DNA of 64,000 bases from Prosthecobacter sp. (GTDB taxonomy: Bacteria > Verrucomicrobiota > Verrucomicrobiia > Verrucomicrobiales > Verrucomicrobiaceae): assembly GCF_014879935.1 (NCBI RefSeq), contig NZ_JACSRD010000138.1:1-64000 (forward strand). Direction: 5' to 3'. The notes beneath the pieces were generated by a model. That model had not been told where the DNA came from. It made no database searches and worked only from the letters and a program-made list of their open reading frames with translations. Position numbers and translations under genes: made by a program. Positions 18,674 through 35,253 of the stretch are shown piece by piece. Position 1 is the first letter of the stretch; each line of letters begins with the position of its first letter.

Positions 18674-20953
18674 TCATGCGGCCTGGATCCGCGTGCCGCC
18701 ATCTTCCAGCGAGATCGAGAGTGTCGCATCTCGCTGGGCGGCGTTTTCCAGCCGCCATTTTGCCAGCGGAGTGACCACGAGGCGTTCCAAGGCCCGCTGG
18801 AGGGGCCTGGCACCGAAACGGTGGTCGTAACCGTCCCGCACGAGCGTGGCGAGCAGCTCTTCGGACCAGCTCAGGGTCAGCCCGCTGGCGGCCAGGCCCT
18901 CGCGCTGGTTGAGGTCGTGGAGTTCCTTGAGGGCAATGTCACGCACATGCGTCTGCGCCAGTGAATCGAAGGTGACGACCGCATCGAGGCGGTTGAAGAA
19001 CTCGGGACGGAAGAATTTCTTCACGGCCGTTTCAAACGCGGGCGGAACCTGGTCCGCTCCAAAGCCCATCGCACCGCGTGAAGTGGCCCCCAGGTTGGAA
19101 GTCATCACGATGATGGCGCTGCGAAAGTCGGTCACCCGGCCAAAACGGTCTGTCAGACGGCCTTCATCCAGCAGACCCAGCAGCGCGTCATAGACTTCAG
19201 CAGCCGCTTTTTCGATCTCGTCAAAAAGCAGCACGCTGAAGGGCTGGCGGCGCAGTTTTTGGATCCACGCAGCCGCGTCGCCATCCGGCGCATGCAGCAG
19301 GCGATGCGCCGCGCCCCAGCTTCCGTATTCGCTCATGTCCAGGCGCACGAGACGCTCCTTTTCCGTCCCGGAGCCGAAACAGAACTCGGACATCGCCCTG
19401 GCCAGCGCGGTCTTGCCCACGCCCGTCGGCCCGCAGAACAGCATCACGCCCTGAGGCCGCCCAGGATCGGTCATCCCGGCTTTGATGCCCGTGATGACGC
19501 GTGCGGCGGCCTCCACGGCCGCGGGCTGGCCGATGATCTGTGCGGCGAGCGATTCGCGCACCTCGTCGAAAGGAAGCGGCCATTCATCCCGCAACAGGAG
19601 TTCAGGCAAACCGGTCTGCTGGACGAACAAGGCCAGCACATCGTCGGCATCGACGCGGCGGGAGTCCAACGTCTGGCGCCCTGCCCTCTCGGCGAGTTTC
19701 CGAATGAAGGCTGACGCCGGGCCTGGAAAAGCAGCGCAGGGCTGGAAGCGCCGAAACAGCCGGTGAACGAGTGTCACGCTTCCGGGAGCGAATTCGAGCC
19801 TTCCAGAGGTCGCGCAGGCATGCGCGACTCGTTCCAGCACATTGCGTGCTTCATTGTCACCGAAGGCAGGCACGTGGACGATTTGAAAAACGTCCAGCAG
19901 GCCTGGCATGAGTCTTCGGCAGGCATCCACCTCTGCTGGCGAGGCTTCCGCGATCATGTGCAGCTCGCGGCGTTGTAAAAACGGCAGCAAAAAGGCGCCC
20001 ACGCTGTCATTGGCCTCCGCACCTCCCACGCGTAGCAGCTCGAGCAGGTTCTCCGCGCAGAAGACGCCTTCGATCTCGCTCAGTTTCTGGATGAACTCCT
20101 CGCAGCGCTCCTCCCACTGACCGAGGTACTTCATTCCCGCGATCATGCGTGCGCCGCTGCCACGCCAGCAGCGCCAGGTGCGCATGGAGTTGTCACTCTC
20201 GTCATCAGCAGTGAGTCGCGCCATGCGGCGGGCGGCGTCGGTGATGATGGTGCTTTTGCCGCAACCTGGCTCACCCACGAGCAAAACGTGGACGCGTTCC
20301 GTCGTGAGCTTGCGCAGTACCGTCATCACCTGTGCGTCGCGACCATAGGCGGCCGAACTCGGCCCACGATCATGCAGCAGCGGATCCGCCACGGTGAAAA
20401 GCACCTGCATGTCCTCGCGTTCGCGCATCGGCGTCTGTCGCGTGGAGCCTGCCACCTCGCGCACACTCACCTGTTCGAGCCATGCGTTGCGTGGCGGCAG
20501 TTTCAGCGCCAGATCCGCGGGTGTCATGCCGGTGAGGTGGTCTTTCACGTAGTGGCGCACCAGTTCTTTGAGCTGTGCCTCGTTGTGAAAGTGAAACCGC
20601 AGTTCCAGCACCGGGACTTCGCATACCGGCAGGCCGTTCTCTGCTTTTCCGGTCACACACGGCACGCGCAGCGTCACCGTTTCCGGACTGGGGATGAGAC
20701 GGTGGCCGGTCTCGTCTTTGTATTGCGCACGCACCTCCACCTTCACCTCTCGCAGCTGTGGCTCCAGCAGTTCAGGGTCGATGCTCCAGGATTCATGCTC
20801 GGCACGCCAGGCCAGTGCCTCACTGAGCTGCCTCAGCACCTCCTGCGGCGTGGCCCCGCAGGCAGATGCGTTGCGGTAGTCTCCCACCAGCAAGCCGGTG
20901 ACACCACCGCTGGCATCACGCCAGAGCAGGACGGGGAAAACATGCGTCGCCAT
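18674..20953 (-). CDS. Divergent Hsp100/Clp-like ATPase, paralogue 3 of a three-gene array
   Basis: 759 residues, two AAA+ modules. The N-terminal about 190 residues are not Clp_N but a beta-rich domain shared loosely with the two neighbours. D1 has an intact Walker A (GEPGCGKS, residues 227-234) and a ClpB-like pore-loop segment MIAGMKYLGQWEERC. Its Walker B position reads GVFCAENLL, lacking the Asp-Glu pair. D2 has Walker A GPTGVGKT, Walker B LLFDEIEKA, sensor 1 MTSNLGA and sensor 2 FGARPLQRALER, all intact. The GYVG pore-loop residues of normal Clp D2 are replaced (HAPDGDAAAW). Unlike its paralogues it ends soon after the D2-small domain. It starts 9 bases after the upstream paralogue's stop. 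It is likely part of a mixed complex; the substrate is unknown. Confidence 0.85.
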   Translation of the reverse strand: MATHVFPVLLWRDASGGVTGLLVGDYRNASACGATPQEVLRQLSEALAWRAEHESWSIDPELLEPQLREVKVEVRAQYKDETGHRLIPSPETVTLRVPCVTGKAENGLPVCEVPVLELRFHFHNEAQLKELVRHYVKDHLTGMTPADLALKLPPRNAWLEQVSVREVAGSTRQTPMREREDMQVLFTVADPLLHDRGPSSAAYGRDAQVMTVLRKLTTERVHVLLVGEPGCGKSTIITDAARRMARLTADDESDNSMRTWRCWRGSGARMIAGMKYLGQWEERCEEFIQKLSEIEGVFCAENLLELLRVGGAEANDSVGAFLLPFLQRRELHMIAEASPAEVDACRRLMPGLLDVFQIVHVPAFGDNEARNVLERVAHACATSGRLEFAPGSVTLVHRLFRRFQPCAAFPGPASAFIRKLAERAGRQTLDSRRVDADDVLALFVQQTGLPELLLRDEWPLPFDEVRESLAAQIIGQPAAVEAAARVITGIKAGMTDPGRPQGVMLFCGPTGVGKTALARAMSEFCFGSGTEKERLVRLDMSEYGSWGAAHRLLHAPDGDAAAWIQKLRRQPFSVLLFDEIEKAAAEVYDALLGLLDEGRLTDRFGRVTDFRSAIIVMTSNLGATSRGAMGFGADQVPPAFETAVKKFFRPEFFNRLDAVVTFDSLAQTHVRDIALKELHDLNQREGLAASGLTLSWSEELLATLVRDGYDHRFGARPLQRALERLVVTPLAKWRLENAAQRDATLSISLEDGGTRIQAA

Positions 20954-20962
20954 GGTCAGGAA

Positions 20963-23900
20963 TCAGTTCGGAGATTGAAACAGCGCGTCCAGTTCTTCCG
21001 GGAGTGGCAGAGCGGAGAGGTGAAAGGCGCGGAATCCGTCTTCGTCCGCGTCTTCTTGCACAGCCAGGCCGGTGTGATGGCTGAGGATCTGGTGATTGGA
21101 ACGCGCCGTCATCACCACGGGTGCTTCTTCCACCGGGATGGACTGCGCGAGGCGCTGAGCCAGCTCGTTGGCGGTCGCGCAGGTGAGCCTCTGCACCTCC
21201 AGCGTCTGCAGGGAACCGTCGTCTTCCAGCAGCCAGCAACCCCGCAGCGGTTCCAGCAAACGCGCGACATTCAACCCCGCCGTCCAGATGCCGGTCTGGA
21301 ACGGCCGCAAAGAGTCAGCCAGTGCGCCGACCGGCTTCACTTCGCAGCCCCAATGGCTGCTCAAGAGCCTCAGCACTCTTTCCTGAAGCGCTTTGGCATG
21401 GCCCATGGCACGCGGCCCCTTCCCGCGAATGACCAGGCCAACCGCCGCATAGTCATGGGGTTCACCTGTCATCAACTCCAGCAGTGAAAGCTCCCGCACA
21501 CATGCGAAGACGGGCGTCTCGGCGATTTCGAGGCTCGTCGCGTCGAGGTCGGCGAGTTCGCTTTGATGCAGCTCGGCTTCGCGTGCGCGGTCAAAGCGTG
21601 GATTGCCGGAAAGGTACTGGCGGACGACGATTTTCACCGGACGTGCACGGGAAACGGAAAGCACACGGCTGCTGCTGACGGGGCGGGCCTTCAGGCTGTT
21701 CTCCGCTGCCTGCAACACGCGCTCCACACGGCGCACCTGTTCACGACAATGGTAGTAGCGTTCCTGGGCCTGGGTGAGCGCATCGAGCTCGACCTTGCCG
21801 CCCGGTGCATGCGCTTCGATGCTGTCGGTCAGTCGGCCCAGCGCGTCATAGGCCGCATCCAGCACCGCTGTCGCAGGAACGCCGCCCCGAGAGAGTTGTT
21901 CAGGCCAAAACACGGTGCGTTCCACCGGGCGCAGCTCCCGAGTGTGCAGCGTGAACTGTTGATCAGCGCAACGCAGCTCAATCCGCAGCGGAATGCCCGG
22001 TGTGCGTGCCGCGAGATCGGCGGCGAGCGGTTGCGCCACTTCCCGCTCGATCACGCGTTTCAAAGCGCGTGCGCCGAGCTGCGGATGATGCCCCAGCTCC
22101 ACGAGCCGTTCGGCCGCCGCCGCCGTGAAGTCAAAGAGGCACTGGCGTTGCCGCAAACCATCGCGCTTCAACACATCGGCCAGCAGCCGGTTGGCGATCT
22201 CCGCCAGATGTTCACGTTTCAGTTCGCGGAACGGCAGCACGCGGTCCAGCCGGTTGAAAAACTCCGGTCGGAAGAACTTTTCCGCCGCCTTGACATACGC
22301 CGCCTCCATTTCGGTCTCCTGAACGCCACCGAAACCGATGCGCGAGCCCGCCTCGCGAACGCCGAGATTTGAGGTGAGCAGGATCACGCAGCTCGTGAAG
22401 TCCGCCACGCGACCGAGCGCATCGCTGAGCCGTCCTTCGTCCAGAACGCCCAGCAGCATGTCAAAAACCTCGGGGGCGGCCTTTTCGATCTCGTCAAACA
22501 GCACCACGGAGAAGGGCTGCCTGCGCACCGCGCCTGTGAGCAGCCCGTCTGGCTGCCCCGGCGTCCCGGTGAGCCGCGGCACGGCAGTCGAATCCACCAT
22601 TTCGTTCATGTCGAAGCGCAGCAGACGGTCCGCGCTGCCGAACAAATGCTGCGCCAGCGCCTTCGCGCACTGCGTTTTGCCCACACCCGTCGGTCCCAGC
22701 AGCAAAAAGGCCGCCAGGGGCCGGCGCGGATCGTTCAACCGTGCCTTGAGCTTGATGAGCACATCCGCAAAGGCATGCAGCACCTCGTCCTGACCGCTGA
22801 CATGTTTCAGGAGGTCGTTCACGATGCTCTCACGGCTGAGCGCCTGCGTGCTGTCGAGCATCGACAAGTGCAGGCCGCTGCGCTCGCGAAACTCTTCCAG
22901 TGCGGCGTGACGGTCACAGGTCCCGCCTGCATGCTTGACTGAAAGACGTTGGAGGAAGCCCGCCGCCTTGCCTGGAAACGCCGCATCGCTCGCGAAGCGG
23001 CGATGCAGTTCATACACGGCCGGCACCACTTCGATGGAAAACGCACAGTCATGCTGCCGCTCCATTTCACGCGCGGCGCTCACCAGAATGCGCAGCGTGT
23101 CCGCCTCTCCCGGCTCCGTCACCGGCACCACATGAAAGAGGTCGGCGAAGGTGCGGTCACGCTCACGCAGCACCCGCCATGATTCGGGCGTGATCTCCGC
23201 CAGCAGGCGCAGGCTGCGCTTTTCAAGACGCGGCTTCAGAAGTTGCGCCACGCTCAAATCGCTGTTCGCGCTCTGTCCGGCGGTGAAGAGACCGGGCAGG
23301 TCGTCCAGATAAAGCACCGCGTCGTTCTTTTCGACGTGCTCGCAGATCGCCTGCACGCGATTCTGCCACTGGCCCACGTAGCTCATGCCGCTGATCAGCC
23401 GCATCGGTGAGACGAGCCACACATTCCGCCTCTTGGTCCACGCCTTGTCCGCCATCATGCGCCAGACGAACTCCTGCACGAGGGCGCTTTTCCCGACCTG
23501 ACGCGGTCCGACGAGCAAAAGGGCACGCTTGTCCGGCAGGCGCAGCCAGCGCTCCAGATCCGCCACTTCCGTCTCACGGCCGGTCGCTCGTGGCAGATCA
23601 TCGGGATACATCGAGTTCAGCAGCCGGCCCACTTTGCGCAGTTCGGCCTCGCCATCGGGCTTTTTGTCGCTGCCGCCGAAAATGGAGGCCCGTCTGGCTG
23701 GTTTCGCCTTCAGCGCATTGAGGGCCGGCTTGATCTTCACCTCCAGCACGGTCAGCCGGGCCTTGCCTTCCTGCGGCAGCGCGTAGTCATCGAGATCGAC
23801 GCCGTCTCCCTTCTTTTCCATCTCGCGAAAATGCTGGGTCAGCACCTCCACCGCGCGTTCGTTGAGCCGCTGATCCTTCAGCACCTCAAAATGCACGTTG

Positions 23901-24241
23901 GACAGCCTGGGTGTGAACCAGAGCTTGCGCCCCAAGGCCTCGTAACCTGCCAGAAAGAAGCGTCGAAGATGCGGGCCGCTCTTCAACTCGATGCGCAGGT
24001 CCAGCGTCCTCGTGTCATAGTCCGGCAGCAGAGACCAGTGGGCCAGCTCGTCATGCCGGGTGTCTTGCGAAAGCTCCAGCAGCTTCGTCTGCAGGTCGGA
24101 TTGCATCTGCGCGAGAGCACGCGAGAGCTTTTCCGACTTCCGCATGGGCTCATCACGATGCAGGGGCCTCAGCACAAACAGCGGCGCCTCCCCCGCTCCG
24201 CGTGAGTGCTCCTCGATGTAAATGGGCAGCGTGATCGTCAT
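20963..24241 (-). CDS. Divergent Hsp100/Clp-like ATPase, paralogue 2, with release-factor-like C-terminal domain
   Basis: 1092 residues from the ATG that overlaps the upstream stop (ATGA at 24238-24241). The N-domain is novel (residues 1-200). D1 has Walker A GPRQVGKS (245-252), pore-loop MRLISGMSYVGQWQNR and Walker B AVLYLDD, with Asp instead of the catalytic Glu. D2 has intact GPTGVGKT, VVLFDEIEKAAPEVF, LLTSNLG and LGARALKRVIER, but GTPGQPDGLL instead of the aromatic GYVG pore loop. After D2-small come a coiled coil (about 840-900) and residues 933-1020 (AVGLVIRGKG, then LQERVLRLLSSHWGCEV, then LLEDDGSLQTLEVQRL). These follow the spacing of the PCRF domain of peptide-chain release factors, without any GGQ domain. 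The PCRF resemblance is by eye and needs profile confirmation. Confidence 0.82.
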   Translation of the reverse strand: MTITLPIYIEEHSRGAGEAPLFVLRPLHRDEPMRKSEKLSRALAQMQSDLQTKLLELSQDTRHDELAHWSLLPDYDTRTLDLRIELKSGPHLRRFFLAGYEALGRKLWFTPRLSNVHFEVLKDQRLNERAVEVLTQHFREMEKKGDGVDLDDYALPQEGKARLTVLEVKIKPALNALKAKPARRASIFGGSDKKPDGEAELRKVGRLLNSMYPDDLPRATGRETEVADLERWLRLPDKRALLLVGPRQVGKSALVQEFVWRMMADKAWTKRRNVWLVSPMRLISGMSYVGQWQNRVQAICEHVEKNDAVLYLDDLPGLFTAGQSANSDLSVAQLLKPRLEKRSLRLLAEITPESWRVLRERDRTFADLFHVVPVTEPGEADTLRILVSAAREMERQHDCAFSIEVVPAVYELHRRFASDAAFPGKAAGFLQRLSVKHAGGTCDRHAALEEFRERSGLHLSMLDSTQALSRESIVNDLLKHVSGQDEVLHAFADVLIKLKARLNDPRRPLAAFLLLGPTGVGKTQCAKALAQHLFGSADRLLRFDMNEMVDSTAVPRLTGTPGQPDGLLTGAVRRQPFSVVLFDEIEKAAPEVFDMLLGVLDEGRLSDALGRVADFTSCVILLTSNLGVREAGSRIGFGGVQETEMEAAYVKAAEKFFRPEFFNRLDRVLPFRELKREHLAEIANRLLADVLKRDGLRQRQCLFDFTAAAAERLVELGHHPQLGARALKRVIEREVAQPLAADLAARTPGIPLRIELRCADQQFTLHTRELRPVERTVFWPEQLSRGGVPATAVLDAAYDALGRLTDSIEAHAPGGKVELDALTQAQERYYHCREQVRRVERVLQAAENSLKARPVSSSRVLSVSRARPVKIVVRQYLSGNPRFDRAREAELHQSELADLDATSLEIAETPVFACVRELSLLELMTGEPHDYAAVGLVIRGKGPRAMGHAKALQERVLRLLSSHWGCEVKPVGALADSLRPFQTGIWTAGLNVARLLEPLRGCWLLEDDGSLQTLEVQRLTCATANELAQRLAQSIPVEEAPVVMTARSNHQILSHHTGLAVQEDADEDGFRAFHLSALPLPEELDALFQSPN

Positions 24242-27200
24242 GACAGCTCCTCCACGGCCTTCGCCAGTCGTGCCTCGATCAGGCGTCGCATCGCCGCATC
24301 CGGCTCCGAACGTGCCCACTCAGACTCGGCAAGGATGCTGTCGGAGATCTTGTTTTCGTCAGCGTTGAAAAGCCGGCGCGGTTTGCTGGACTTGTCGGTG
24401 ATGAATCCAGCGCGGTGGACGCCAGCCGGAGGCACGTAATCGGCGAGCTGCGTCGCTCCCGCCTCCACCAGGCAGATCCGGTGCACGCCGTTGCTGACGT
24501 GCTTGTGCAGGCCCGCCTCATGAAGGAAGCGCGGATGAAACAACTCGCCGCGCAGATGCAGCAGGGCTCCCACCCAGCCGCCCGGCGGTCTGGCCATTGG
24601 TTCGTTCACATTCTTCGGAGGTTCGCGGCGCGGCTTGCTCTCCGGCGCATCCCGGCCTGCGGGTGGCAGCACAAATTCGAAGCCCAGGAGCTTTCCACCC
24701 AGAGCAGCGGCGTGGTCGAGGTAAATGCGAATCATCTGCTGCATCCAGCCGCGCTCTTCGCTGTAGATGGCGACCACGACGTCATCCGGCTGCGTGAAGC
24801 TCAGGCGGAAAAAGTCACGCTGAAGCTGCTGACGGTCGTTTTGAATCTCTGACAGGCATTGGTGCAGTGCAGCGGCGTCAAAACCGCCTGCCAGATGAAA
24901 GGTGCCGAGCGTGTCCGTTTCCAGACCGTCCATGCGCTGAGTGAGCCTGGCCAGGTCTCCCAGCAAGCGGCGCAAATGCCCCAGCCGCGCCATGCGCTCC
25001 TGTTCGTCGCTGCTGAGCCAGCCGCGTTTTGCGCTTCGTCGTTCCAACACGGCCAGGATGGGTACTTCATTCTCCAGCGCACTCACGGTCGAGCTTCGTG
25101 CCAGCTTTGACAAACGGCGGCGGAGCGTCACCACCTCGTCGGCGAGTTTCAGCGCTTGCTGCGTGGCTGCGGCGTCCTCTTTGGCCTGATGCTGGCGTAC
25201 TTCGATCACCAGCGCCTGCTTCACGACATTCACCGTGGCCACGAGCGGCTGGCGATGCCGCACGTCGTTCAGCGCCTCGGCCAGCGGCACCATCAGCTCG
25301 CGCTCCAGCACACGTTTCAGCGGTCGTGCGCCATACTTTGGGTCGTGCCCGCGATCTGCCAGATGCTCCTCCACTCCGGGACCGAGTCGCAGATCCACAG
25401 CGCGCAGGCGGAGGCCGTCACGCTGTCTGAGAAGGTCCAGATGACGCCGGGTGACACGTAGCATGAGGTCGCGACTCAGGGCCCGGAATCGCAAAATGGC
25501 GCCGAGGCGATTGTAAATCTCCGGCCGCAGAAACTGGCGTGCCGCTTCCTCAAAATGGCCGCTGCTGTCACTTGCCGCACCGCCGGGAAATCCCACGGCG
25601 CCACGCTGAAAATCCCGCGCACCGAGGTTGGAGGTCATGATGACCACCGTGTTGCAAAAGTCTGCCACCCGCCCCGCGGCGTCGGTGAGGCGTCCATCTC
25701 CGAGGATCTGCAGCAGCAGGTCAAAAAACGCCGGATCGGCCTTTTCGAACTCGTCCAGCAGCAGCACGCTGAACGGCTGCTCGCGCACTCGGGAGGTCAG
25801 AAGCCCCTCGGGCTGACCTGCACCGCCGATCAACCGCTGAACCGACGCCGCATCACTGAACTCGCTCAAGTCGAAGCGTGCCAGCCGGTTCGCGCTGCCA
25901 AAAAGGAACTCCGCGAGAGACTTCGCCAGCTCCGTCTTGCCCGTGCCCGTCGGTCCCACGAACAAAAACGACGCCAGCGGCTGCTTGGGACGGTTCAGGC
26001 GGGCTTTCACCGTCACCAGCAGATCCAGCACCGCCTCCACCGCCTGCGGCTGGCCGATCACCCGCTGCGTGAACCACTGCCGTGTGGCATCCAGGTCGAG
26101 CGGAAGATCATCCTTCAAAAGCACCTCTGGGAGCCCTGTCTCCCGGGTGAAAGCGGCGGTGACCTGCGCCACGCTCAGCAGCGTCTTTTGTTCCACCGGC
26201 TGCTCCGTGACCAGCGTCGTGAGAAACCGGACCGGACGTCCCGGGTTGGCTGAATACGTGGCGTAACGGCGATGGAGCTGGTGCAGCCAGTCGAGCGCCG
26301 CGTCCGACCGTGCGTGGTCGCTGTCCTTCCGTGCCAGATGCAGAAACACCTGGTCCAAAATGCGCCGCGTGACCTCTGGAGCCGGCTCCGGCACGCGAAC
26401 GTGCAGAAATGCGCCCGCGATGTGCGGATCACGCCGCTCAATGACCGCCAGTTGCTCCGGCGTGCATTCCGCGATGGCGAGAAGCTCGCCGCGAGCGATC
26501 CATGGCCGCAAAAAACTGGCGATGCTCTGTGCATTCGCGCTGTGCTGGCCGACCTCCATCAGTTCGACCAGATTTCCCAGATGCAGCACCGATTTTGTCT
26601 TCGAAGCCTCGCGGCACAGGTCCCGGCAGCGCTCCTGCCACTGCCCGAATCCTGACTGGCCGGCGATGAGCTGCGCGCCGCTGGTGCTCCAGACACTTTT
26701 TCCAGTCATGCGTGCCAGTTCCCGCACGGCAGCCGTCTTTCCCACACCTGGCGGCCCCACGAGCAGCACGCTGGCAGGCTGTCTTGACTCCAGCGCCTCG
26801 CGCAACAGATGCAGCGTGGCTTCCATCTCGAACGCGGGCGCCGTGTTCTGCCGCGTGAGTTTCACCGCCACCCGGCGCAGCACCGACTTCTCCTTTTTCT
26901 CCCCGTCCTTCTGTTCCTCCAGCTCACGCGGTGTCTTGATCTCGGCCGTGACGCTGAGCTCATCCACCCGCAACTCACGCACAATCTGCGTCTTCGCCAG
27001 GCGCTCCAGGGAAACGCGTTTCACACGATCCACGAGTGCCAGCCGCACATGAGCCTCCACGCGTTCGGCGATCTGCTCCGCCTTTGCAGCGATCACCTGC
27101 ACACCAAGCGCCGGAATGAACGCCAGATGCAGATCGTCGGCCTCCGACCATGCGAGATAATCAAAACGCAACTCCACCGGCGTCCGCCAGTCGGCGCGCT

Positions 27201-27456
27201 TCTTCGGCGCTTCCAGGGTGATCGTGATCTGTTCCACGCGGCCGTCCCTGCCCGTGACCCGACGATGCAACGTCGGCACCGGCACGGCTTCAGGGTCTTT
27301 CAGCAGCGCCGTGATCTTTGAGCGCAACCCCACCGTCGCGCGTCCGGCTTTGTCGCCCAGGCTCGAGACCTCGGGAAACCCATGACACTCCACCAACTCC
27401 AGGTCATCGCCCAGGCCGAGCGTGACGGCTTGCACATGGATCGTTCGTTCAGGCAT
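24238..27456 (-). CDS. Divergent Hsp100/Clp-like ATPase, paralogue 1, with release-factor-like C-terminal domain
   Basis: 1072 residues. A novel N-domain (1-150) is followed by a charged linker (EEQKDGEKKEKS). D1 has Walker A GPPGVGKT (234-241) and pore-loop LIAGQSGFGQWQERC; Walker B is lost (VLHLGNLVEL, about 290-299). D2 has Walker A GPTGTGKT (501-508), Walker B VLLLDEFEKA (568-569 DE), VIMTSNLGA and YGARPLKRVLEREL; the GYVG loop is replaced by GGAGQPEGLL. A coiled coil (about 740-890) leads to residues 891-990. There WMQQMIRIYLDHAA, then VGALLHLRGEL, then FLHEAGLHKHV mirror WAEMLLRMYLRWAE / ATLLIKGE / YLKSEAGVHRL of release factor 2. No GGQ motif is present. It is the first of the three paralogues, 51 bases after oppF on the same strand, so it may be transcribed with the peptide importer. 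Confidence 0.83.
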   Translation of the reverse strand: MPERTIHVQAVTLGLGDDLELVECHGFPEVSSLGDKAGRATVGLRSKITALLKDPEAVPVPTLHRRVTGRDGRVEQITITLEAPKKRADWRTPVELRFDYLAWSEADDLHLAFIPALGVQVIAAKAEQIAERVEAHVRLALVDRVKRVSLERLAKTQIVRELRVDELSVTAEIKTPRELEEQKDGEKKEKSVLRRVAVKLTRQNTAPAFEMEATLHLLREALESRQPASVLLVGPPGVGKTAAVRELARMTGKSVWSTSGAQLIAGQSGFGQWQERCRDLCREASKTKSVLHLGNLVELMEVGQHSANAQSIASFLRPWIARGELLAIAECTPEQLAVIERRDPHIAGAFLHVRVPEPAPEVTRRILDQVFLHLARKDSDHARSDAALDWLHQLHRRYATYSANPGRPVRFLTTLVTEQPVEQKTLLSVAQVTAAFTRETGLPEVLLKDDLPLDLDATRQWFTQRVIGQPQAVEAVLDLLVTVKARLNRPKQPLASFLFVGPTGTGKTELAKSLAEFLFGSANRLARFDLSEFSDAASVQRLIGGAGQPEGLLTSRVREQPFSVLLLDEFEKADPAFFDLLLQILGDGRLTDAAGRVADFCNTVVIMTSNLGARDFQRGAVGFPGGAASDSSGHFEEAARQFLRPEIYNRLGAILRFRALSRDLMLRVTRRHLDLLRQRDGLRLRAVDLRLGPGVEEHLADRGHDPKYGARPLKRVLERELMVPLAEALNDVRHRQPLVATVNVVKQALVIEVRQHQAKEDAAATQQALKLADEVVTLRRRLSKLARSSTVSALENEVPILAVLERRSAKRGWLSSDEQERMARLGHLRRLLGDLARLTQRMDGLETDTLGTFHLAGGFDAAALHQCLSEIQNDRQQLQRDFFRLSFTQPDDVVVAIYSEERGWMQQMIRIYLDHAAALGGKLLGFEFVLPPAGRDAPESKPRREPPKNVNEPMARPPGGWVGALLHLRGELFHPRFLHEAGLHKHVSNGVHRICLVEAGATQLADYVPPAGVHRAGFITDKSSKPRRLFNADENKISDSILAESEWARSEPDAAMRRLIEARLAKAVEELS

Positions 27457-27507: not shown

Positions 27508-28476
27508 TCACGTGCAGCACGGACACGCCTGCACCCAGTGTCCCGGCGACACCTCTTTGAGGCGCAGGTCCATCTTTGTGCTCTCTTCCCACTTCGGATG
27601 CTTCATGCGATGCCCAAAAGCGCAACCGGCCGGCGGATTGATCGGCGAAGGCACATCACCACGCAGCAATTGACGCTCGCGACGCTTCGTCGGGTCCGCG
27701 ATGGGGATCGCATCGAGCAAAGCCTTCGTGTAGGCATGCCGCGGATTCTTATAAAGCTCCGCCGCAGGTGCCATCTCGACGATTTTGCCAAGGTACATCA
27801 CCGCCACGCGATCGCTCATGTGCTGCACGACGCTCAAATCATGCGCGATGAACAGATACGCGAGCCCAAAGTCCCGCTGAAGCTCCAGCAGCAGGTTCAA
27901 GACCTGCGCCTGAACACTCACGTCGAGCGCGGAGACCGGTTCGTCGCACACGATGAGCTTCGGCTTCAACGCGAGCGCTCTCGCAATGCCGATGCGCTGC
28001 CGCTGACCGCCGCTGAACTCGAAGGGATACTTGTGCACGCCATCTGCCGGCAAGCCGACGCGTTTCAGCAGCTCCGCCGCCCATTCGCTGCGCTCGGCTC
28101 GCGCACCCATCTTTTGAATGATGAACGGCTCCTCCAAGATCTGCCCGATGGTGTGACGCGGGTTCAGCGACTCCGCCGGATCTTGAAACACCATCTGCAA
28201 CTCCCGCCGCAGCTCGCGAAGCTGCCCCTGCGACTTCGTCGAGATGTCGTGGCCGTTAAACTGGATGCTCCCCGCCGTCGGTTTCAGCAACCGCACAACC
28301 GACTTCGCCACCGTGGACTTCCCGCAGCCGCTTTCACCGACGAGTCCGAGTGTCTCGCCCGGTTGCAGCTCAAAGCTCACACCATCCACCGCCTTGCACG
28401 TCGCCTTCGTCGTGTAAAACACGCCGCCACGCACCGGGAAGTGCATCTTGAGGTTTTGGACGGAGAGGAGACTCAT
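27508..28476 (-). CDS. oppF: Peptide ABC transporter ATP-binding protein (OppF/DppF type)
   Basis: 322 residues starting [20 protein letters not shown]. Walker [11 protein letters not shown]-loop [13 protein letters not shown], signature [15 protein letters not shown], Walker [13 protein letters not shown] and H-loop FIAHDLSVV are all intact. The C-terminal extension has the oligopeptide-transporter Cys-containing region ([20 protein letters not shown]). The start overlaps the oppD stop by 4 bases (ATGA), indicating coupled translation. It energises the YejBE-like permease with OppD. E. coli YejF is a fusion of two such ATPases, whereas here they are separate. Confidence 0.93.
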
Positions 28477-29471
28477 GAAGCAGACAGTTGTTGGGCAAAG
28501 CACGCGCAGGCCTCGACGCCATGGCCGCTGCCGCATTCCTTCCAGGGCTGGCGTTGGCTCAAAACGTCATCGCTGTGCTTGTTGGGGCAGCGTGGGGCGA
28601 AGCGGCAGCCTTTGGGCATGTCTGCTAGGCTCGGGACCATGCCGGGGATGACCGGAAGCGGGGTCTTCGGCGGATGATCGAGCTTCGGCAGACACTGGAT
28701 GAGGCCTTGAGTGTAAGGATGGAGCGGCTTGGCGAAGATTTCGCTCACGGGGCCGCGCTCGACGATGCGGCCGGCATACATGACGATGACTTCATCGCAC
28801 ACCTCGGCGATCACACCGAGGTCGTGCGTGATCAAAATGACGCTCATGCCGAGGTCTTGCTGCATGTCACGGATCAGCTCGAGAATTTGAGCCTGCACGG
28901 TCACATCGAGCGCGGTGGTCGGTTCGTCGGCGATAAGGAGCTTCGGCGTGTTGATGAGCGCCATCGCGATCATCACGCGCTGACGCATGCCGCCGCTGAG
29001 TTGATGCGGATACTCGTTCAGACGCTGCTCCGCGGCCGGAATGCGCACTTTGTTCAGCATGTCGAGGCTACGCGACAAAGCCTCACGCGGCTCGATTCCG
29101 GGCTCGTGGAGCAAAACGGCCTCGCAGAGCTGTTTGCCGATGGTTTGCACCGGATTGAGCGCGGTCATCGGCTCCTGGAAAATCATCGAGATGTCGTTCC
29201 CACGCACTTTTCGCATGTCCTCGGGCGAAAGCGTGACCAGATCGCGATTTTCGAAGCGGATGCTGCCGCCGAGAATTTTGCCGTGCGGTTGAGGAAGCAG
29301 TCGCGTGATCGAAAACGCCGTCACGCTCTTCCCGCAGCCGCTTTCGCCGACAATGCCGAGCGTTTTGCCTTTCGGCACCGTGAAGCTCACGCCATCGACA
29401 GCCACCACACGTCCGGCGTCGGTATCGAAGCCGGTGACGAGATTTTCGACCTGGAGGATGGGTTCGCTCAT
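28473..29471 (-). CDS. oppD: Peptide ABC transporter ATP-binding protein (OppD/DppD type)
   Basis: 332 residues. Walker [15 protein letters not shown]-loop [15 protein letters not shown], signature [15 protein letters not shown], Walker [14 protein letters not shown] and H-loop [12 protein letters not shown] are intact. The C-terminal [13 protein letters not shown] cluster is typical of OppD/DppD proteins. It overlaps the upstream substrate-binding-protein gene and the downstream oppF by 4 bases each. It forms the ATPase heterodimer with OppF. Confidence 0.93.
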
Positions 29472-31423
29472 TTGATCTGATACTGGTCAAAGATTCGATA
29501 CACCTCGCCGAAGGAGCGGCCGTCGCGGATCGCCTGCTGCGTCTCCTTGCGGGCATCCTCGTCGATCCAGTGCACATGCGTGTCGAGCGGGAGCTGGCTC
29601 TTCTTGAGGTTGCCGTCGCGCGGCCATTTGATCCAGCGCCAGTGGCCGAAGCGGTAGGCGGGGCTTTCCCATGCGGGGATGGAGATGCATTTGTCCTCGA
29701 CCATTTGCTGGAGTTGCCAGCCGAGGCGCTGAACCTCGTCCTCCGTCTGTGCCTTGCGATACTGGTCGATGAGCGGGTCCATGGCCGGATCAGCGTTCAT
29801 CGTGACGTTGTTGGTGTCCGGCACGAGCTTGCGGGTGCCATCGGGCTGCACCTTCCACGCGTTGTCGCTGTGATAGTATTCCCACAGGCGTGGAAATGGC
29901 GGCTGCGCGGCCCAGCCGGCCATGACCATCTCGTGGTTCTTCTGGTCCATCTTCTTGAAGAGCACGGTCATGTCGAGCTCTTCCAGGTTGATCTCCAGAC
30001 CTGCCTTCATCGCCTCCTCCTTGAGGCGCAGCGCCATCGGCACAAACGGGCCCTGCGGCAAGGAAAGGGTGACCGAGAGACGCTTGCCGGCCGCGTTGAC
30101 GAGCACGCCGTCCTTGCCGGCGGTGCTGAAGCCCGCCTTGGCGAAATGCTCGCGCGCCTTCGGCACATCAAAGGGCCGCGCTTTGACATTCGGGTTCGTG
30201 AAGCGTCCGAAGCCCGCGAAGGTGCTCTGCATGCGCGTGTAGTCGCCGCGGAAGTCCACATCGATCACTTTTTGGAAGTTCAGGGCGTGCGCGATGCCGA
30301 TGCGCACGTCGAGACTATCGAGCAGCGGCTTGCTCTGGTTGATGTAGATGCCGCGCGAGATGCGGGGGAAGTCATTGAAGAACTTCTGCCGCTCGATGTA
30401 GCCGTTGTAGAACTCCGGCACCTCGGACTTGTCATACCAGTAACGCGGCAGACCGAGCGCAAACCAGTCAATCTGGCCCTGGCGGAACATCTCCCAGGTC
30501 TTGTCCATGCTGCCGACGACTTTGTACTCGATGAAGTCGGGATTGAAGCGGTAGCGGTAGTGCTTCTTGTCGCGTGCCCACCAGTTCTTCAGGCGAGTGA
30601 GCGTGATGGAGCGGCCTTTTTTGATGCCTTCGGGGAAAATGTCATACGCGCCCGTGGTCGGAAATTTCCGCCACTGGTAGCGGGCGGGATAGTCATCGGT
30701 GAACTCCTTGAAGAAGTGCCGCGCGAGCGGCTGGAGGTCATAAACGATGTACATGCGGTCTGGTTTGCTCTCCGGCATGTGGAAGGCAAATGTGCGCTCG
30801 TCATAGCGGGTGATGCCGGTGAACTCCTTCGTGTAGTAGTCGTTGTACCACGGGTCCTTCAAATAGGGCGACTGCATGACGTAGAAGGTCATGAAGTAGT
30901 CGTCGCTTTCGATCTTCACGCCGTCGGAGAAGGTGGCGTCTGGATCGATGCGGAAGTACATCGTCTTGCCGTCTGGTGAGACCGCCCACTCCTTCGCGAT
31001 GCCCGGTGCCCAGCCGTCCACATTGAGATGCGGCTGGATGAGGTTCACATTGATGTGATCCCAATGTTCCGAGCGGAAGGAGCCGTTCGCATCCGGGCCG
31101 ACAAAGCGGAACGTGGCGGGAAACGAGTCGATTTGATCGTGGAAGACGCCGCCCTTCTTCGCATCGGGATCGCCCATTTCCGGCAGATCGCCGCCGTTTT
31201 CCCATTTCAGGTCCGCCGGCAGATCCGCAGGCGTTTTGAAGCGGAAGAAGTCCGGCTTCGACTTGTAGTAGGCCTGCACCTCCGCGGTGTTGTCATAGGG
31301 CGGAAAGCGGTCGTCGGCCTCGCAGGGAAGAACGGTGAGCCAAGAGCAGAGCGTCAGTAGCGCCGCGAAGGTGCTTCGCGTGCGGGTTGGCTCTTGGCGC
31401 TTGGCTCTCGGATCTCGGCTCAT
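29468..31423 (-). CDS. yejA: Extracellular peptide-binding protein (YejA-like, SBP_bac_5)
   Basis: 651 residues with an N-terminal signal segment ([20 protein letters not shown]). The YejA-type opening is [60 protein letters not shown] and [19 protein letters not shown] follow, all typical of family-5 solute-binding proteins of the YejA subgroup. E. coli YejA belongs to a peptide/microcin C importer. The ATG overlaps the yejE stop (ATGA), and the signal peptide starts about 15 residues in. The cargo is probably medium-length peptides; specificity is not visible. Confidence 0.9.
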
Positions 31424-32937
31424 TTGTAAGTGGTGAACTTTTTCGGATCAAAGGCCTCGCGCACGGCCTCGCCCACGAAGGTGACGAGCACGAGCACGAT
31501 GACCATGGCGGCGAACGCTCCGCTGACGATCCAGGGGTAATTGAAATTTTCCGTGCCTTCGTGCAGTAGGCGGCCCCAGCTCGGCTCCGCGGGCGGCAGG
31601 CCAAAGCCGAGGAAGTCCAGCGAGGCGAGCGCGGTGATGATGCCGGCCACTTTGAACGGCGCGAGCGTGACGAGGATGGCGATCGTGTTCGGCAGGATGT
31701 GCTTGAACATGACACGCAGCGGCCCAGCGCCGAGCAGGCGGGCGGCGGAGACGTAGTCGCGCTCCTTTTCGCGATAGGTCGCCGTACGCAGGTAGGTGGC
31801 GGTCTCCATCCAGCCAAACACGCCGATGATGCCGACGAGGATAATCATCGTCGGCTCGACCAGCGAGCTCACGATCATCACGACAAAAAGGAATGGCAGC
31901 ACCGACCAGATTTCGATCAAACGCTGGCCCAGCAGGTCAGCCAGGCCGCCGAAGTAGCCGAGCACGCCGCCGATGGTCACGCCCGCGGCGAAGACGAAGG
32001 TCAAAAACAGCACGGAGGCAATCAGCGCCTGCTGCCAGCCGCCGTAGAGCACGGCGAGGATGTCACCGCCCTGCGAGTTCGTGCCCAGCCAGTGCCCCTG
32101 ACGCCACGACGGCGGCGAGGGAGGGTAAATCACCGTGAAAAGCTGCTCACCGCCCGCCGCTTGGAGCGCCGCGGCCTTACCACCGGTGAAGTCATCATAT
32201 TTCACCCGCCCGCCCTCTTTGAAGGTGGCCTTCTCCACCTGCTCGCCATTCACATCCCAGCCCATCATGTCGCCATTGAGCACGCCGTGACGGAAGGTGA
32301 ACTCCTGGCGCTTCTGCACCGGCTTCTCGCGAAAGACCGTGTAAGCGCGACCATTGAAAAGCTGCGTGCCGCCGGGAGCGAGGAGCTTGCCGGAGGCATC
32401 GCGCTCGAGCTGTTCGATGATCTCGTCGGAGTCGAGCTTCGGCGCGTACGGAACGAGCGGCATGAGCACCCAATCGCCCCTGCTGGCTTCGCGGAACTTC
32501 TTTTGCAGCTCGCGGTAGTTCGTCTCGCTCTCGTAATCGAGGCCGAAGGCCTTGCCAGGGATCACATCGCCACGCAGAAAGGGAAACGACCACTTTCCAT
32601 CATGGCTGACCATGAGCGCCTGCTTGCCGACGAGCAGATTGTCCAGCATGGCGAGGCCCGCGAGGCCCAGCAGAATCAAAAAGGACAACCAGCCGCGCTT
32701 GAGCGAGCGGAACCGGCGGAGCTGCTTCAAGGTGAGCGGGCTGAACTGCCACTCGCGTTTGCCACGCAGCTGCAAAGACACGCCGCAGGCCAGAAACACC
32801 GCCAGCAGCACCCAGCCGGGCCATACCCCGGCGAGAAACGGAATCTTCAGCACCGGCACACGCAGCCCCGCGAGCTGCTGCGCACCGGCGAGCAGCGTGA
32901 AAAACGTGAGCGTGTGACCGAGAGCGCGAGGTGACAT
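31420..32937 (-). CDS. yejE: Peptide ABC transporter permease (YejE/OppC type) with enlarged extracytoplasmic loop
   Basis: 505 residues, against 341 in E. coli YejE. Extra N-terminal helices (about 1-58) precede the YejE-like opening (FRSLKRGWLSFLILLGLAGL, then ALMVSHDGKWSFPFLRGD). A loop of about 180 residues before the core (to about residue 280) is longer than usual. The binding-protein-dependent transport core follows: HWLGTNSQGGDILAVLYGGW, RDYVSAARLLGAGPLRVMFK (EAA-type loop) and SLDFLGFGLPPAEPSWGRLL, ending GEAVREAFDPKKF. It begins 3 bases after yejB and overlaps yejA. Forms the channel with YejB. Confidence 0.91.
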   Translation of the reverse strand: MSPRALGHTLTFFTLLAGAQQLAGLRVPVLKIPFLAGVWPGWVLLAVFLACGVSLQLRGKREWQFSPLTLKQLRRFRSLKRGWLSFLILLGLAGLAMLDNLLVGKQALMVSHDGKWSFPFLRGDVIPGKAFGLDYESETNYRELQKKFREASRGDWVLMPLVPYAPKLDSDEIIEQLERDASGKLLAPGGTQLFNGRAYTVFREKPVQKRQEFTFRHGVLNGDMMGWDVNGEQVEKATFKEGGRVKYDDFTGGKAAALQAAGGEQLFTVIYPPSPPSWRQGHWLGTNSQGGDILAVLYGGWQQALIASVLFLTFVFAAGVTIGGVLGYFGGLADLLGQRLIEIWSVLPFLFVVMIVSSLVEPTMIILVGIIGVFGWMETATYLRTATYREKERDYVSAARLLGAGPLRVMFKHILPNTIAILVTLAPFKVAGIITALASLDFLGFGLPPAEPSWGRLLHEGTENFNYPWIVSGAFAAMVIVLVLVTFVGEAVREAFDPKKFTTYK

Positions 32938-32940
32938 GGT

Positions 32941-34197
32941 TTATTCAAATCGAATGCGCGGGTCCATGCAGGCCACGAGGTAGTCGGAGAGGATGTTTCC
33001 CAGCATGATGAGAAACACATCGATGGTCAGGATGCCCATCATCAGCGGCACATCGCGGTCCAGCACGGCCTGGAAGCTCAGCATGCCGAAGCCGTTGATG
33101 TCGAACACACGCTCCACGAGGATGGAACCGGCCACAAAGATGGTCACGATGCCGCCAAGCGTGGTGGCGATGGGGATGAGCGAATTGCGCAGCGCATGGC
33201 CCACGACGGCGAGGCGGAAGCTCGCTCCCTTTGCCACCGCGGTGCGCACGTAGTCGGAGGCCAGGTTGTCCATGAGGTTGTTCTTCATCAGCATGGTGAT
33301 GAAGGCGAAGCTGCCCACCATGTAGCACACCAGCGGCAGCGCCCCGTGATGCACGAGGTCCCAGGCTTTTTCGAGAAAGCCCATGTCGGCAAAGTTTTCG
33401 CTCGTGAAGCCTCCGGTGGGGAACCAGCCCATGCGGGCGGCCAGGTACACCACCAGAATACTGCCCAGCACGAACCCCGGCACCGCGTAGCCAATGAAAA
33501 TCAGGATCGAGCTCGCATTGTCGAGGAAGCTGCGATGCTTGATGGCCTTCACCACGCCCAGCGGGATGCAGATGATGTAAGTGAGCACAAACGAGATCAG
33601 CCCGTAGAAGATCGAAACCGGCATGCGCTCCAGCATCATGCCGCCCACCGGGTCATTGTAGCGGGTGGAGATGCCCAGATTGCCCTGCAGCAGCCCGTTG
33701 AACTCCGGGCGGAAAACCACGAAACGCTGTTTCTCCGGCTCAAAGCGGGCTTTCCAACCGGGGACGAGGTTTCCAGACTTGTCACGCACCTCGCCTTTCT
33801 CATTCAGCACGGCCTCGATGAGCTCGTAGGCGTTGTTGGGCTTCCATTCAGCTTTGGGCAGCAGACGCTTCAGCGTGCCGCTCGCCTCTTTTTTGCCATC
33901 CTCGACTTTGATCACCTGCCGGCTCTCCTCGCTCGGCAGTGCACCGAGCCACATGAGGTAGCCGATGAGGTAGGGCTTATCGAATTTGAAGTGAACGAGG
34001 AGCTGCTCCTTCTGCTCCTCGCTCAGCGATCCACCGGCGTCACGCTGGCTGCTTTTGGCGTTCAAAGCCATCGCCTGCCGCATCATCGCCTCCACCGGCC
34101 CGCCCGGTGCCATGCGGACGATAAAATACACCGCCATCGTCGCCCCGACGAGCGTCGGCAGGATGAGCAAAAAGCGGCGGATGAAGTAGGCGGTCAT
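32941..34197 (-). CDS. yejB: Peptide ABC transporter permease (YejB/OppB type)
   Basis: 418 residues, first gene of the importer operon. The opening MTAYFIRRFLLILPTLVGAT, the motif RMAPGGPVEAMM, the EAA loop region DYVRTAVAKGASFRLAVVGH and the end DYLVACMDPRIRFE match YejB. A periplasmic stretch of about 110 residues (GGSLSEEQKEQ to NLGISTRYNDP) is typical of the subgroup. It is divergent from the aspartyl-protease gene, with 159 bases between; the operon promoter should lie there, but none was clear enough to list. Confidence 0.92.
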   Translation of the reverse strand: MTAYFIRRFLLILPTLVGATMAVYFIVRMAPGGPVEAMMRQAMALNAKSSQRDAGGSLSEEQKEQLLVHFKFDKPYLIGYLMWLGALPSEESRQVIKVEDGKKEASGTLKRLLPKAEWKPNNAYELIEAVLNEKGEVRDKSGNLVPGWKARFEPEKQRFVVFRPEFNGLLQGNLGISTRYNDPVGGMMLERMPVSIFYGLISFVLTYIICIPLGVVKAIKHRSFLDNASSILIFIGYAVPGFVLGSILVVYLAARMGWFPTGGFTSENFADMGFLEKAWDLVHHGALPLVCYMVGSFAFITMLMKNNLMDNLASDYVRTAVAKGASFRLAVVGHALRNSLIPIATTLGGIVTIFVAGSILVERVFDINGFGMLSFQAVLDRDVPLMMGILTIDVFLIMLGNILSDYLVACMDPRIRFE

Positions 34198-34356
34198 TCA
34201 GCGGGTATCGGACGGAGAAAGTGAAAAATCTCTGACATTACGGCCGTGAGCACAAGGATTTGTGTGCGATTTGCACCAGAACACACGCTGTCGGCCTCTG
34301 ATCGCGGGAACCGCAAGCGCGGACGGCTGCGTATTCGTTCGTGCCACGCTTGTCCG

Positions 34357-35253
34357 ATGAAAAAACTCACCGCACTTCTGATTTCAGCCCTGCTTTCATC
34401 CTGCGCGGTGCCTTACCTGCCTTTCAGGGCGGGAAGTTCCGCCGCGGACATCGTGGTGCCGGCTCACTTTCGCTCCGCTGCACCGCATGTCATGGCCAGC
34501 ATCAACGACCGGGCGCCCATCGCGCTGCTGTTCGACACGGGCGCTGTGACCAGCGTGTTCGAACCCGACATCGCGACCGCCACCGGGCTGCTGCCTGCCA
34601 GCGGCCAGTCCGTGACGATTCGGGGGGTGCACGGCAGCACCTCGGCCACACAGGCGATGATGCAGACGCTGAAGATCGGCTCGTGGCGCGCAGACCATGT
34701 CCCCTGCCTCGTGCGCAGCCGCTCCGCTTTCCGTGTTGGTGGTTTGGGCAGCGCGATCCTCGGCATCGATCACTTTCGCCGCCACTGCACTTTTGTGACC
34801 ATCGATTACCGTCGTGGTGGCCTCGAAGCTGGTTTCTCACGCCCGTTTCAGCCGGGAGGCTCACATGCGACGCGTGCTCCGTTTCGATGGGTCAACGGTT
34901 TGCCGGTCATCCGCGTGAATTCCGGCGGTGATTCGTGGGACGCGGTGGTCGATACGGGTTCATCGTGGGGGATTGTCATCGATCAGGACACCGCATCGCG
35001 GCTGGGACACGCGCGTGGCGGCTTCAGCATGGGAGAAGGCCTCATTCTCAGTGGTGTCGGCGGCAGTGTGAGCGCAGACAAGGCGGGCGCACGCGTGGTG
35101 CGTGGAACCGGAGGCGTGAGCCTCTGCGGTGAGACCCATGCGGCGGCGGCATTTTATGTCATGCCAGGGCCGAAACGCGTCGGCTCGCGCTATTGGGCGG
35201 GTTCGCGTCTGACACTCGACTTTGTCACCAAAACCCTGTGGCTGGAAAGATGA
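34357..35253 (+). CDS. Bilobal retropepsin/pepsin-like aspartyl protease, lipoprotein
   Basis: 298 residues. The N-terminus MKKLTALLISALLSSCAVP ends in a lipobox (LSSC), so it is probably a lipoprotein. There are two catalytic motifs: LLFDTGAVTSVFE in lobe 1 and AVVDTGSSWGIVI in lobe 2. Each is followed by the closing retropepsin pattern (ILGIDHF...VTIDY; VGSRYWAGSRLTLDF). Two DTG lobes in one chain give a pepsin-like arrangement that is uncommon in bacteria, where most such proteins have one lobe. The start at 34357 gives a perfect signal peptide. It overlaps the next gene, a paralogue, by 4 bases. Confidence 0.8.
   Translation: MKKLTALLISALLSSCAVPYLPFRAGSSAADIVVPAHFRSAAPHVMASINDRAPIALLFDTGAVTSVFEPDIATATGLLPASGQSVTIRGVHGSTSATQAMMQTLKIGSWRADHVPCLVRSRSAFRVGGLGSAILGIDHFRRHCTFVTIDYRRGGLEAGFSRPFQPGGSHATRAPFRWVNGLPVIRVNSGGDSWDAVVDTGSSWGIVIDQDTASRLGHARGGFSMGEGLILSGVGGSVSADKAGARVVRGTGGVSLCGETHAAAAFYVMPGPKRVGSRYWAGSRLTLDFVTKTLWLER

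Follow-up and report, generated by a model that had tools for sequence, protein, structure and literature searches.

On the minus strand of the window, a 64,000-nucleotide stretch of Prosthecobacter sp. DNA (contig NZ_JACSRD010000138.1, positions 1 to 64,000), lie three adjacent genes for paralogous Hsp100-like proteins with two AAA modules each (D1 and D2), which we call A, B and C and to whose strand all coordinates of gene parts below refer. Gene A (24238..27456, 1072 residues) encodes an N-domain, D1, D2 and a release-factor-like tail; it is followed by gene B (20963..24241), with 1092 residues from a likely ATG at 24241 in an open reading frame (ORF) that extends back to 24319, and by gene C (18674..20953, 759 residues), whose product is tailless. 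The stop of gene A and the start of gene B overlap in an ATGA, and a promoter scan found no promoter. AAA_2 and ClpB_D2-small were returned by a Pfam scan for each protein, accounting for D2 in all three, and D1 was recognised by alignment; the three double-AAA paralogues proposed here by a first-pass annotation of the bare sequence are thus confirmed. For each protein the top NCBIfam model is ClpB, with scores of 295-326 bits where the cut-off is 1232; from the Pfam domains together with scores so far under the cut-off we consider the proteins Hsp100-like but not ClpB.

Motor motifs of D1 and D2

Relatives were collected by one contig scan (62 loci, 61 with family ORFs and one, L106, with none) and by whole-genome searches, and were aligned with reference Clp proteins from the same and related genomes. 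They include a second form in which the family is represented by one gene (single-gene cousins, reached via X_G038 (L043) and L168). Motif counts take only rows complete over the motif (6 of 7 references were usable), and the motif set excludes L045, L046, L072 and L079, which repeat L039, L038, L040 and L041, respectively. In the window, the D1 Walker A motifs read GPPGVGKT (A, 26734..26757), GPRQVGKS (B) and GEPGCGKS (C), and alignment places the D1 pore loops at GQSGFG (A, 26644..26661), GMSYVG (B, 23372..23389) and GMKYLG (C, 20120..20137). Where Clp proteins have IDEL at D1 Walker B, alignment gives LGNL in A (HLGNL, 26569..26583; Asp to Gly, Glu to Asn), LDDL in B (YLDDL, 23297..23311; catalytic Glu to Asp) and AENL in C (CAENL, 20045..20059). 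The initial claim that this motif is lost in A and C and weakened to Asp-Asp in B therefore holds, with the correction that C has Glu at the Asp position and Asn at that of the catalytic Glu. The arginines are likewise lost at the aligned D1 finger position of A (PHIAGAF, 26407..26427).

The D1 Asp-Glu pair was found in 0 of 171 family rows (A 0/53, B 0/40, C 0/28, single-gene cousins 0/21; Myxococcota A 0/10, B 0/9 and C 0/10) versus 6/6 reference Clp proteins, so that the functional D1 pair against which the first-pass annotation had staked its proposal did not turn up in any of them. Outside Myxococcota the usual residues at these two positions are Gly-Asn in A, Asp-Asp in B and Glu-Asn or Glu-Ser in C. 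As had been proposed, nearly every row has an intact D1 Walker A and the ClpB-like aromatic pore loop is usually kept, Myxococcota B being the exception (GK[ST] in 5/9, an aromatic first pore residue in 4/9); the loop is nearly fixed per subunit type, and A carries Gly-Phe in place of the Tyr/Phe-Arg of ClpB in 51/53 rows. The tandem D1 arginines (RR) of ClpB occur in 1 of 150 A, B and C rows versus 6/6 references, with a lone Arg at the first or second position in 6/53 A and in 4 and 5 of 10 Myxococcota C.

D2 presents the reverse pattern. All three window proteins keep the Asp-Glu pair (LLLDEFE in A, by alignment, 25744..25764; VLFDEIE in B, 22484..22504; LLFDEIE in C, 19211..19231), TSNLG, the arginine finger and GAR, A having its D2 Walker A as GPTGTGKT at 25933..25956, and all lack GYVG (aligned pore-loop region of A, 25804..25836). 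Across the family the D2 pair is present in 167/167 rows (A 52/52, B 40/40, C 25/25, cousins 21/21; Myxococcota A 10/10, B 9/9, C 10/10), the D2 sensors and arginine finger are kept in nearly all, and a GYVG-type loop is seen in none of any group versus 6/6 references. Retention of the D2 catalytic motifs and absence of GYVG thus stand as first described, but some aromatic residue is present in the shortened loop region of 22/52 A, 20/40 B and 1/25 C proteins, so it is safer to say that D2 lacks the GYVG motif than that it lacks any aromatic.

Judged by these alignments, the D1/D2 pattern is far from chance, and the proposed split of roles between the rings, with grip motifs lacking catalysis in D1 and the reverse in D2, extends across the family. 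The idea of complementary loss between paralogues did not survive, either as a description or as the cause of the split: A, B, C and the single-gene cousins all lack the D1 Asp-Glu pair, which makes the loss a property of the whole family, and the cousins show the same split. By alignment, the catalytic Asp-Glu Walker B that marks both rings of Hsp100/Clp unfoldases is missing from D1, and neither the catalytically intact D1 nor the GYVG D2 pore loop of ClpA/ClpC is present.

The Walker A motifs of A, B and C are 267, 271 and 281 residues apart, versus 402 in the ClpB reference, and two references that carry IGF loops show 337 and 287; the trio thus has no ClpB-like middle-domain spacing. At the aligned position of the ClpP-docking IGF/LGF loop the window has AVGF in A (25588..25599), RIGF in B (22331..22342) and AMGF in C (19061..19072). 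This reading covered 61/65 A, 47/51 B, 35/38 C and 6/7 reference rows, and xGF was found in 52/61 A (with a hydrophobic residue before GF in 35), 30/47 B, 32/35 C and the one cousin read (1/1), versus 0/4 ClpB-like references. The LGF loop sets ClpC apart from ClpB (PMC10149685). The family resembles ClpA/ClpC in its double AAA architecture, in the absence of a ClpB-length middle region and in this loop, and differs in the motifs lost from D1 and D2, in having no Clp_N among the Pfam matches listed, in its release-factor tails and in its three-gene set. To ClpB/Hsp104 disaggregases it is linked by the NCBIfam score, and it is set apart from them by the short spacing, the xGF loop, the lost D1 pair and the tails. 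We accordingly rejected plain membership of ClpB, for want of the long spacing and in view of the xGF loop, and plain membership of ClpC, the D1 Asp-Glu and D2 GYVG being absent.

Conservation of the trio and its single-gene cousins

The A-B-C order recurs in Verrucomicrobiota, Planctomycetota, Acidobacteriota and Myxococcota, so that the operon-like trio of the first-pass annotation proves conserved across phyla. A is followed by B in 50 of the 61 loci and by B and C in 38 (counted by eye, with all of L045-L105 retained), and several loci without the full trio stop at a contig edge. In a whole-genome check of 10 genomes whose locus lacks B or C and 2 with the full trio, B was found in 11/12 and C in 11/12 at family-level scores; 9 of the 10 genomes with an incomplete locus hold all three genes, one B (in G444) being a fragment at a contig end that adjoins C. 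Each gene standing alone and unlinked had been named as an outcome that would speak against the trio: the genes do lie on three separate contigs in G440, G442, G443, G517 and G568, all draft assemblies, yet the set is still complete there. A further trio check took 25 genomes picked for at least 2 matches, 13 of which are the same records as scan loci and hence not independent; among the 12 others, 10 have A, B and C.

Matches were found in 43 genomes of a Planctomycetota sample (294 genomes from the phylum of Zavarzinella formosa, G438, which holds locus L061); 21 carry the full trio and 19 the single-gene cousin alone, the latter making up 19 of the 20 genomes with a single match. G527 has both trio and cousin, and G656 only a C that is cut by a contig end. 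In the Verrucomicrobiota sample the trio is present in 3 of 387 genomes, the window's own counted. Absences in these phylum samples are soft, the best 6 or 8 candidates per genome having been scored. In one Verrucomicrobia assembly (L104:9431-12990) gene A is broken up over several frames with B and a split C downstream, by its sequence a case of decay or assembly error. In G659 (L227:1-7221) the first gene of an adjacent pair scores 656 as the single-gene type versus 644 as another type and the second 654 as B versus 596, and the pair is perhaps an intermediate between single gene and trio.

In a phylogenetic tree, A and C each fall on one side of a branch across phyla, with support of 87 and 94 (not starred), B falls in two parts with Myxococcota B apart, and the cousin L043 sits alone on a long branch; a length rule had given all 14 references the label ClpB, some of them being in fact ClpC-like, and Myxococcota genes were labelled A, B or C by gene order, one gene each of L096, L101, L102 and L103 scoring slightly higher for another label. 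The pairwise divergences of the three proteins are strongly correlated, with r at 0.96-0.97 across 25 loci and, once Myxococcota are set aside, at 0.91-0.93 across 18; 0/999 shuffles were as high. Clustering of the neighbours of trio loci revealed no conserved fourth gene. The commonest clusters, radical-SAM-like (8 loci) and phosphatase-like (7 loci; these names are readings of the sequence), and most clusters of 4-6 loci come from related Planctomycetota loci and contain many antisense ORFs, and dehydrogenase-like and response-regulator-like clusters (5 loci each) are spread more widely without a fixed place; a conserved fourth gene is not supported on these grounds. Around the cousins, one ORF pair alone recurred.

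Tails and N-domains

Past the D2 sensor-2 motif, complete A and B proteins continue for about 347-445 and 340-430 residues and C proteins for about 44-66 (L096 is odd). We aligned 54 of 58 A tails and 45 of 47 B tails, near-repeats and odd or broken frames having been dropped. Pfam PCRF matches 10/54 A tails at E<=0.1 (best 8.5e-5). An AlphaFold2 model of the window's A tail (residues 723-1072, 24241..25290) has a predicted local distance difference test score (pLDDT) of 90.0 and a predicted template modelling (TM) score of 0.79, and every one of the 41 PDB chains that Foldseek matched to it at E<=0.001 is a release factor (RF1, RF2 or mitochondrial RF1; best RF2, 5.8e-9). Over residues 46-350 the model corresponds to domains 1, 2 and 4 of class I release factors, with nothing equivalent to domain 3, which bears GGQ, and VIA superposes domains 2/4 tightly (2.5 Å over 139 residues). 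A PDB search with the profile built from the 54 A tails likewise hits RF2 (3e-6), and hhalign pairs the A tails with 30 release factors from related genomes to either side of the GGQ domain (E 1.6e-11).

PCRF is over its cut-off in 7 of 7 cousins scanned by Pfam (best 1e-15; HEAT repeats in 5/7), and a profile of 19 cousin tails matches RF2 at 1.6e-54 over nearly the whole length and RF1 at 1.7e-35; a contig end truncates cousin L194, whose tail is therefore not visible, and of the L189 tail only the last residues are seen. GGQ is aligned in 0/19 of these tails, and the stop-codon tripeptide of release factors (PxT or SPF) is not conserved in them; the bare letters GGQ turn up at other places in 4 A tails, 1 B tail and 1 cousin tail. 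Most cousins retain a degenerate domain 3, which makes the lack of this domain in the A tail look like a loss and does not support an ancestral release factor that never had GGQ. Positions of the E-x-G-x-H and R-x-Y types are kept from cousins to A, as is the fold of domains 1, 2 and 4. Descent from a release factor is almost certain for the tails of the cousins and of A, and in the alignments and the model the A tail is a class I release factor without its GGQ domain, a further reduced form of the cousin tail. As the cousins share the D1/D2 pattern and carry RF2-like tails, an Hsp100 motor followed by a dead RF2 characterises the family at large. The family departs from RF2 itself in the lost GGQ, the unconserved stop-codon loop and the fusion behind an AAA+ motor; two strong PCRF genes of release-factor length lie elsewhere in the window's genome.

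The tail of B (20966..22033) is a divergent relative of those of A and the cousins. By hhalign it matches the A tail (96.9%), cousin tails (98.3%, E 1.3e-14) and release factors (76.8%, E 2.1e-5), and for it, too, a release-factor ancestry is likely. The first-pass annotation did not contain the release-factor tail, which alters the likely biology of the system. A partial Ribosomal_L12 match was seen at the C-terminus of 4/54 A tails; the Myxococcota A proteins L100:1271-4756 and L102:2488-6006 end in a half-length match to the L7/L12 C-terminal domain above the Pfam cut-off (positions 10-37 and 9-37, respectively, of the 67 in the model), a sequence match that we take only as a hint.

For the N-domains of A (residues 1-213, 26818..27456), B (stretch used with hhalign, 23570..24238) and C (20336..20953) we built alignments of 58/62, 47/49 and 36/38 sequences, dropped as for the tails. 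The three are homologous to one another (hhalign 94-98%; A/C 98.1%, A/B 97.3%). They had been described as not Clp_N, and indeed Clp_N is absent from the Pfam matches listed for the whole proteins (best 25 of 35, 15 of 15 and 25 of 32); scanned alone at E<=5, the N-domains also gave no Clp_N (nothing for A, one weak unrelated family each for B and C), a result compatible with a remote relative. The modelled C domain (pLDDT 79.7) has the N-terminal domain of the HicB antitoxin as its best VIA neighbour (Z 8.8, 2.1 Å over 81 residues, slightly above the tool's stated background), but Foldseek returned nothing for it at E<=0.001. PDB profile searches gave two weak matches for A (3nwo, 0.038; TTHA1756, 0.085), no HicB for C and none for B, TTHA1756, which we take to be HicB-like, remaining weak at 0.054 and 0.085. 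From the model, the N-domains are likely HicB-like.

A proposed machine and its alternatives

ClpB-type motors have ATP hydrolysis and pore loops in both rings. In the family described here, D2 is without GYVG and the D1 loops are kept, and we place the grip in D1 on this basis. We propose that A, B and C most likely assemble as a mixed double-ring hexamer, an arrangement that we consider rather likely from the subunit-specific D1 loops and the joint retention of the genes and with which the conserved order, the retention of the set when split and the correlated divergence are consistent. The D1 ring would bind ATP without hydrolysing it and would assemble the ring, its pore loops, differing by subunit, holding the polypeptide, and the D2 ring would hydrolyse ATP and drive the movement that D1 passes on to the substrate. 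Substrate choice would fall to the N-domains, which are related to one another and probably HicB-like. Stripped of both the peptide-release chemistry of GGQ and the stop-codon loop, the RF2-derived tails of A and B would dock the machine on the factor site of the ribosome or on release-factor partners, so that it would act on stalled or occupied ribosomes or on nascent chains; the IGF-like D2 loop may then pass the substrate to ClpP. The hand-off, suggested by xGF at the LGF-loop position, is a tentative proposal; ClpP is encoded in the window's genome. Domain 1 of release factors is at the factor-entry side of the ribosome, which makes an N-terminal motor sterically conceivable there, and docking of the tails on ribosomes is, from their sequences, plausible though somewhat less likely than not. 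Sequences and models bear out the motif pattern, the conservation of the trio, the descent of the A and cousin tails from release factors and the loss of GGQ, and the overall architecture is well supported; the ATPase behaviour of each ring, the make-up of the hexamer, the docking, the substrate and the ClpP hand-off are inferred from them. That A, B and C together make up a single unfoldase of the Hsp100 class with D1 grip and D2 hydrolysis, and tails that may be directed to the ribosome, we put at somewhat short of an even chance. The complete picture, a three-subunit double-ring hetero-hexamer held in the ribosomal A site by dead RF2 modules, dividing grip and motor between D1 and D2 and clearing stalled ribosomes or nascent chains, possibly into ClpP, is unlikely to be right in every part.

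Several observations weigh against this machine or its parts. The window's own A tail has no Pfam match; its superposition on release factors is loose, with Foldseek TM scores of 0.21-0.46 (ranks 1-41) and a best VIA row of RF2 at Z 17.0 and 7.1 Å over 259 residues, the low whole-chain TM being explained by the absent domain 3 and a different arrangement. The best PDB profile match of the B tail is a weak one (RF1, E 0.21), gene C has no tail at all, and xGF is absent in 17/47 B proteins. RR is retained at the D1 finger in 6/21 cousins and the first Arg in 12/21. No C was detected in G441 and no B in G511, where A and C were found, and G659 has its odd family gene pair plus a cousin. Linked genes would show correlated divergence anyway.

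The tails may also have a life apart from translation. Without its stop-codon loop and GGQ, the A tail need not bind ribosomes and may be a protein-protein module; the same motor could then be a general or adaptor-driven Clp unfoldase in which the tail has been re-used for interaction or regulation, with its coiled-coil domain 1 in a role like that of the middle domain of ClpB. The missing domain 3 of the A tail fits this reading, the trio's short Walker A spacing leaves the regulator role free, and no translation gene is a conserved neighbour of trio loci or cousins; on the other hand, domains 1, 2 and 4 have kept their fold and the E-x-G-x-H and R-x-Y type positions persist as well, which is more than an arbitrary linker would require. 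We hold this for a serious contender, if not a probable one.

That A, B and C form separate homo-hexamers with different substrates and merely share an operon is improbable: the complete D2 motor in each protein, the single-gene cousins, which show that the architecture is workable as one protein, and the unlinked genes of some genomes would all suit it, yet the set is kept in 9/10 genomes with an incomplete locus and the D1 pore loop is nearly fixed per subunit. Patchy presence (3/387 in the Verrucomicrobiota sample, the full trio in 21/294 of the Planctomycetota sample) and matches of the PADLOC models DolB and PDC-M37B to the AAA parts could instead point to a mobile defence or conflict system rather than housekeeping quality control. 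We regard this as very unlikely, as the PADLOC matches are confined to the AAA region, no conserved defence neighbour or partner gene was found at trio loci, and the window's A tail was unmatched in plasmid and phage collections, as was one cousin tail in viral contigs.

Pex1 and Pex6 are not known to belong to the Clp lineage. They offer a parallel to the proposed hetero-oligomer, a double-ring AAA+ hetero-hexamer in which D1 is catalytically dead and ATP-bound and D2 is active (PMC10518020); the family would share this arrangement and differ in gripping with D1, where Pex1/Pex6 uses D2 aromatic loops, and in having three proteins as opposed to two. ClpI of Actinomycetota is likewise a Clp class found from sequence alone, with and without LGF loops, but has intact ATPase modules, and the passages of its description consulted mention neither a release-factor tail nor a trio (PMC10149685). 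Full-text searches of open-licence papers yielded no description of such a fusion or trio, and the consulted parts of a release-factor survey (PMC6514570) have nothing on such a fusion. A class of Hsp100 proteins that would grip with D1 and hydrolyse ATP with D2 is apparently undescribed. A whole class across several phyla that appears to divide the two jobs between its rings would offer a natural experiment on the transmission of force from one AAA ring to the other. By joining an unfoldase to a dead release factor, the family also hints at a connection between protein unfolding and translation that has gone unrecognised in Planctomycetota, Verrucomicrobiota, Acidobacteriota and Myxococcota. 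If the complete picture above is right, the class would be a bacterial functional counterpart of Cdc48 at stalled ribosomes, assembled from pieces of Hsp100 proteins and release factors.

An oligopeptide/dipeptide ABC transporter operon (27508-34197) lies 51 bases upstream of the trio on the same strand, with different genes at this position in the related genome G011, and a retropepsin-like aspartyl protease gene (Pfam Asp_protease_2) is found at 34246-35253 on the plus strand. Within the region L044:961-9999 (contig 147 of G000), the window's genome has a further Hsp100-like gene, encoding 804 residues with an IGF loop and intact D1 and D2 Walker motifs; it comes soon after a DnaK-like gene, with a kinase-like gene upstream (both names are readings of the sequence), and the region is possibly a second Hsp70-Hsp100 cluster.

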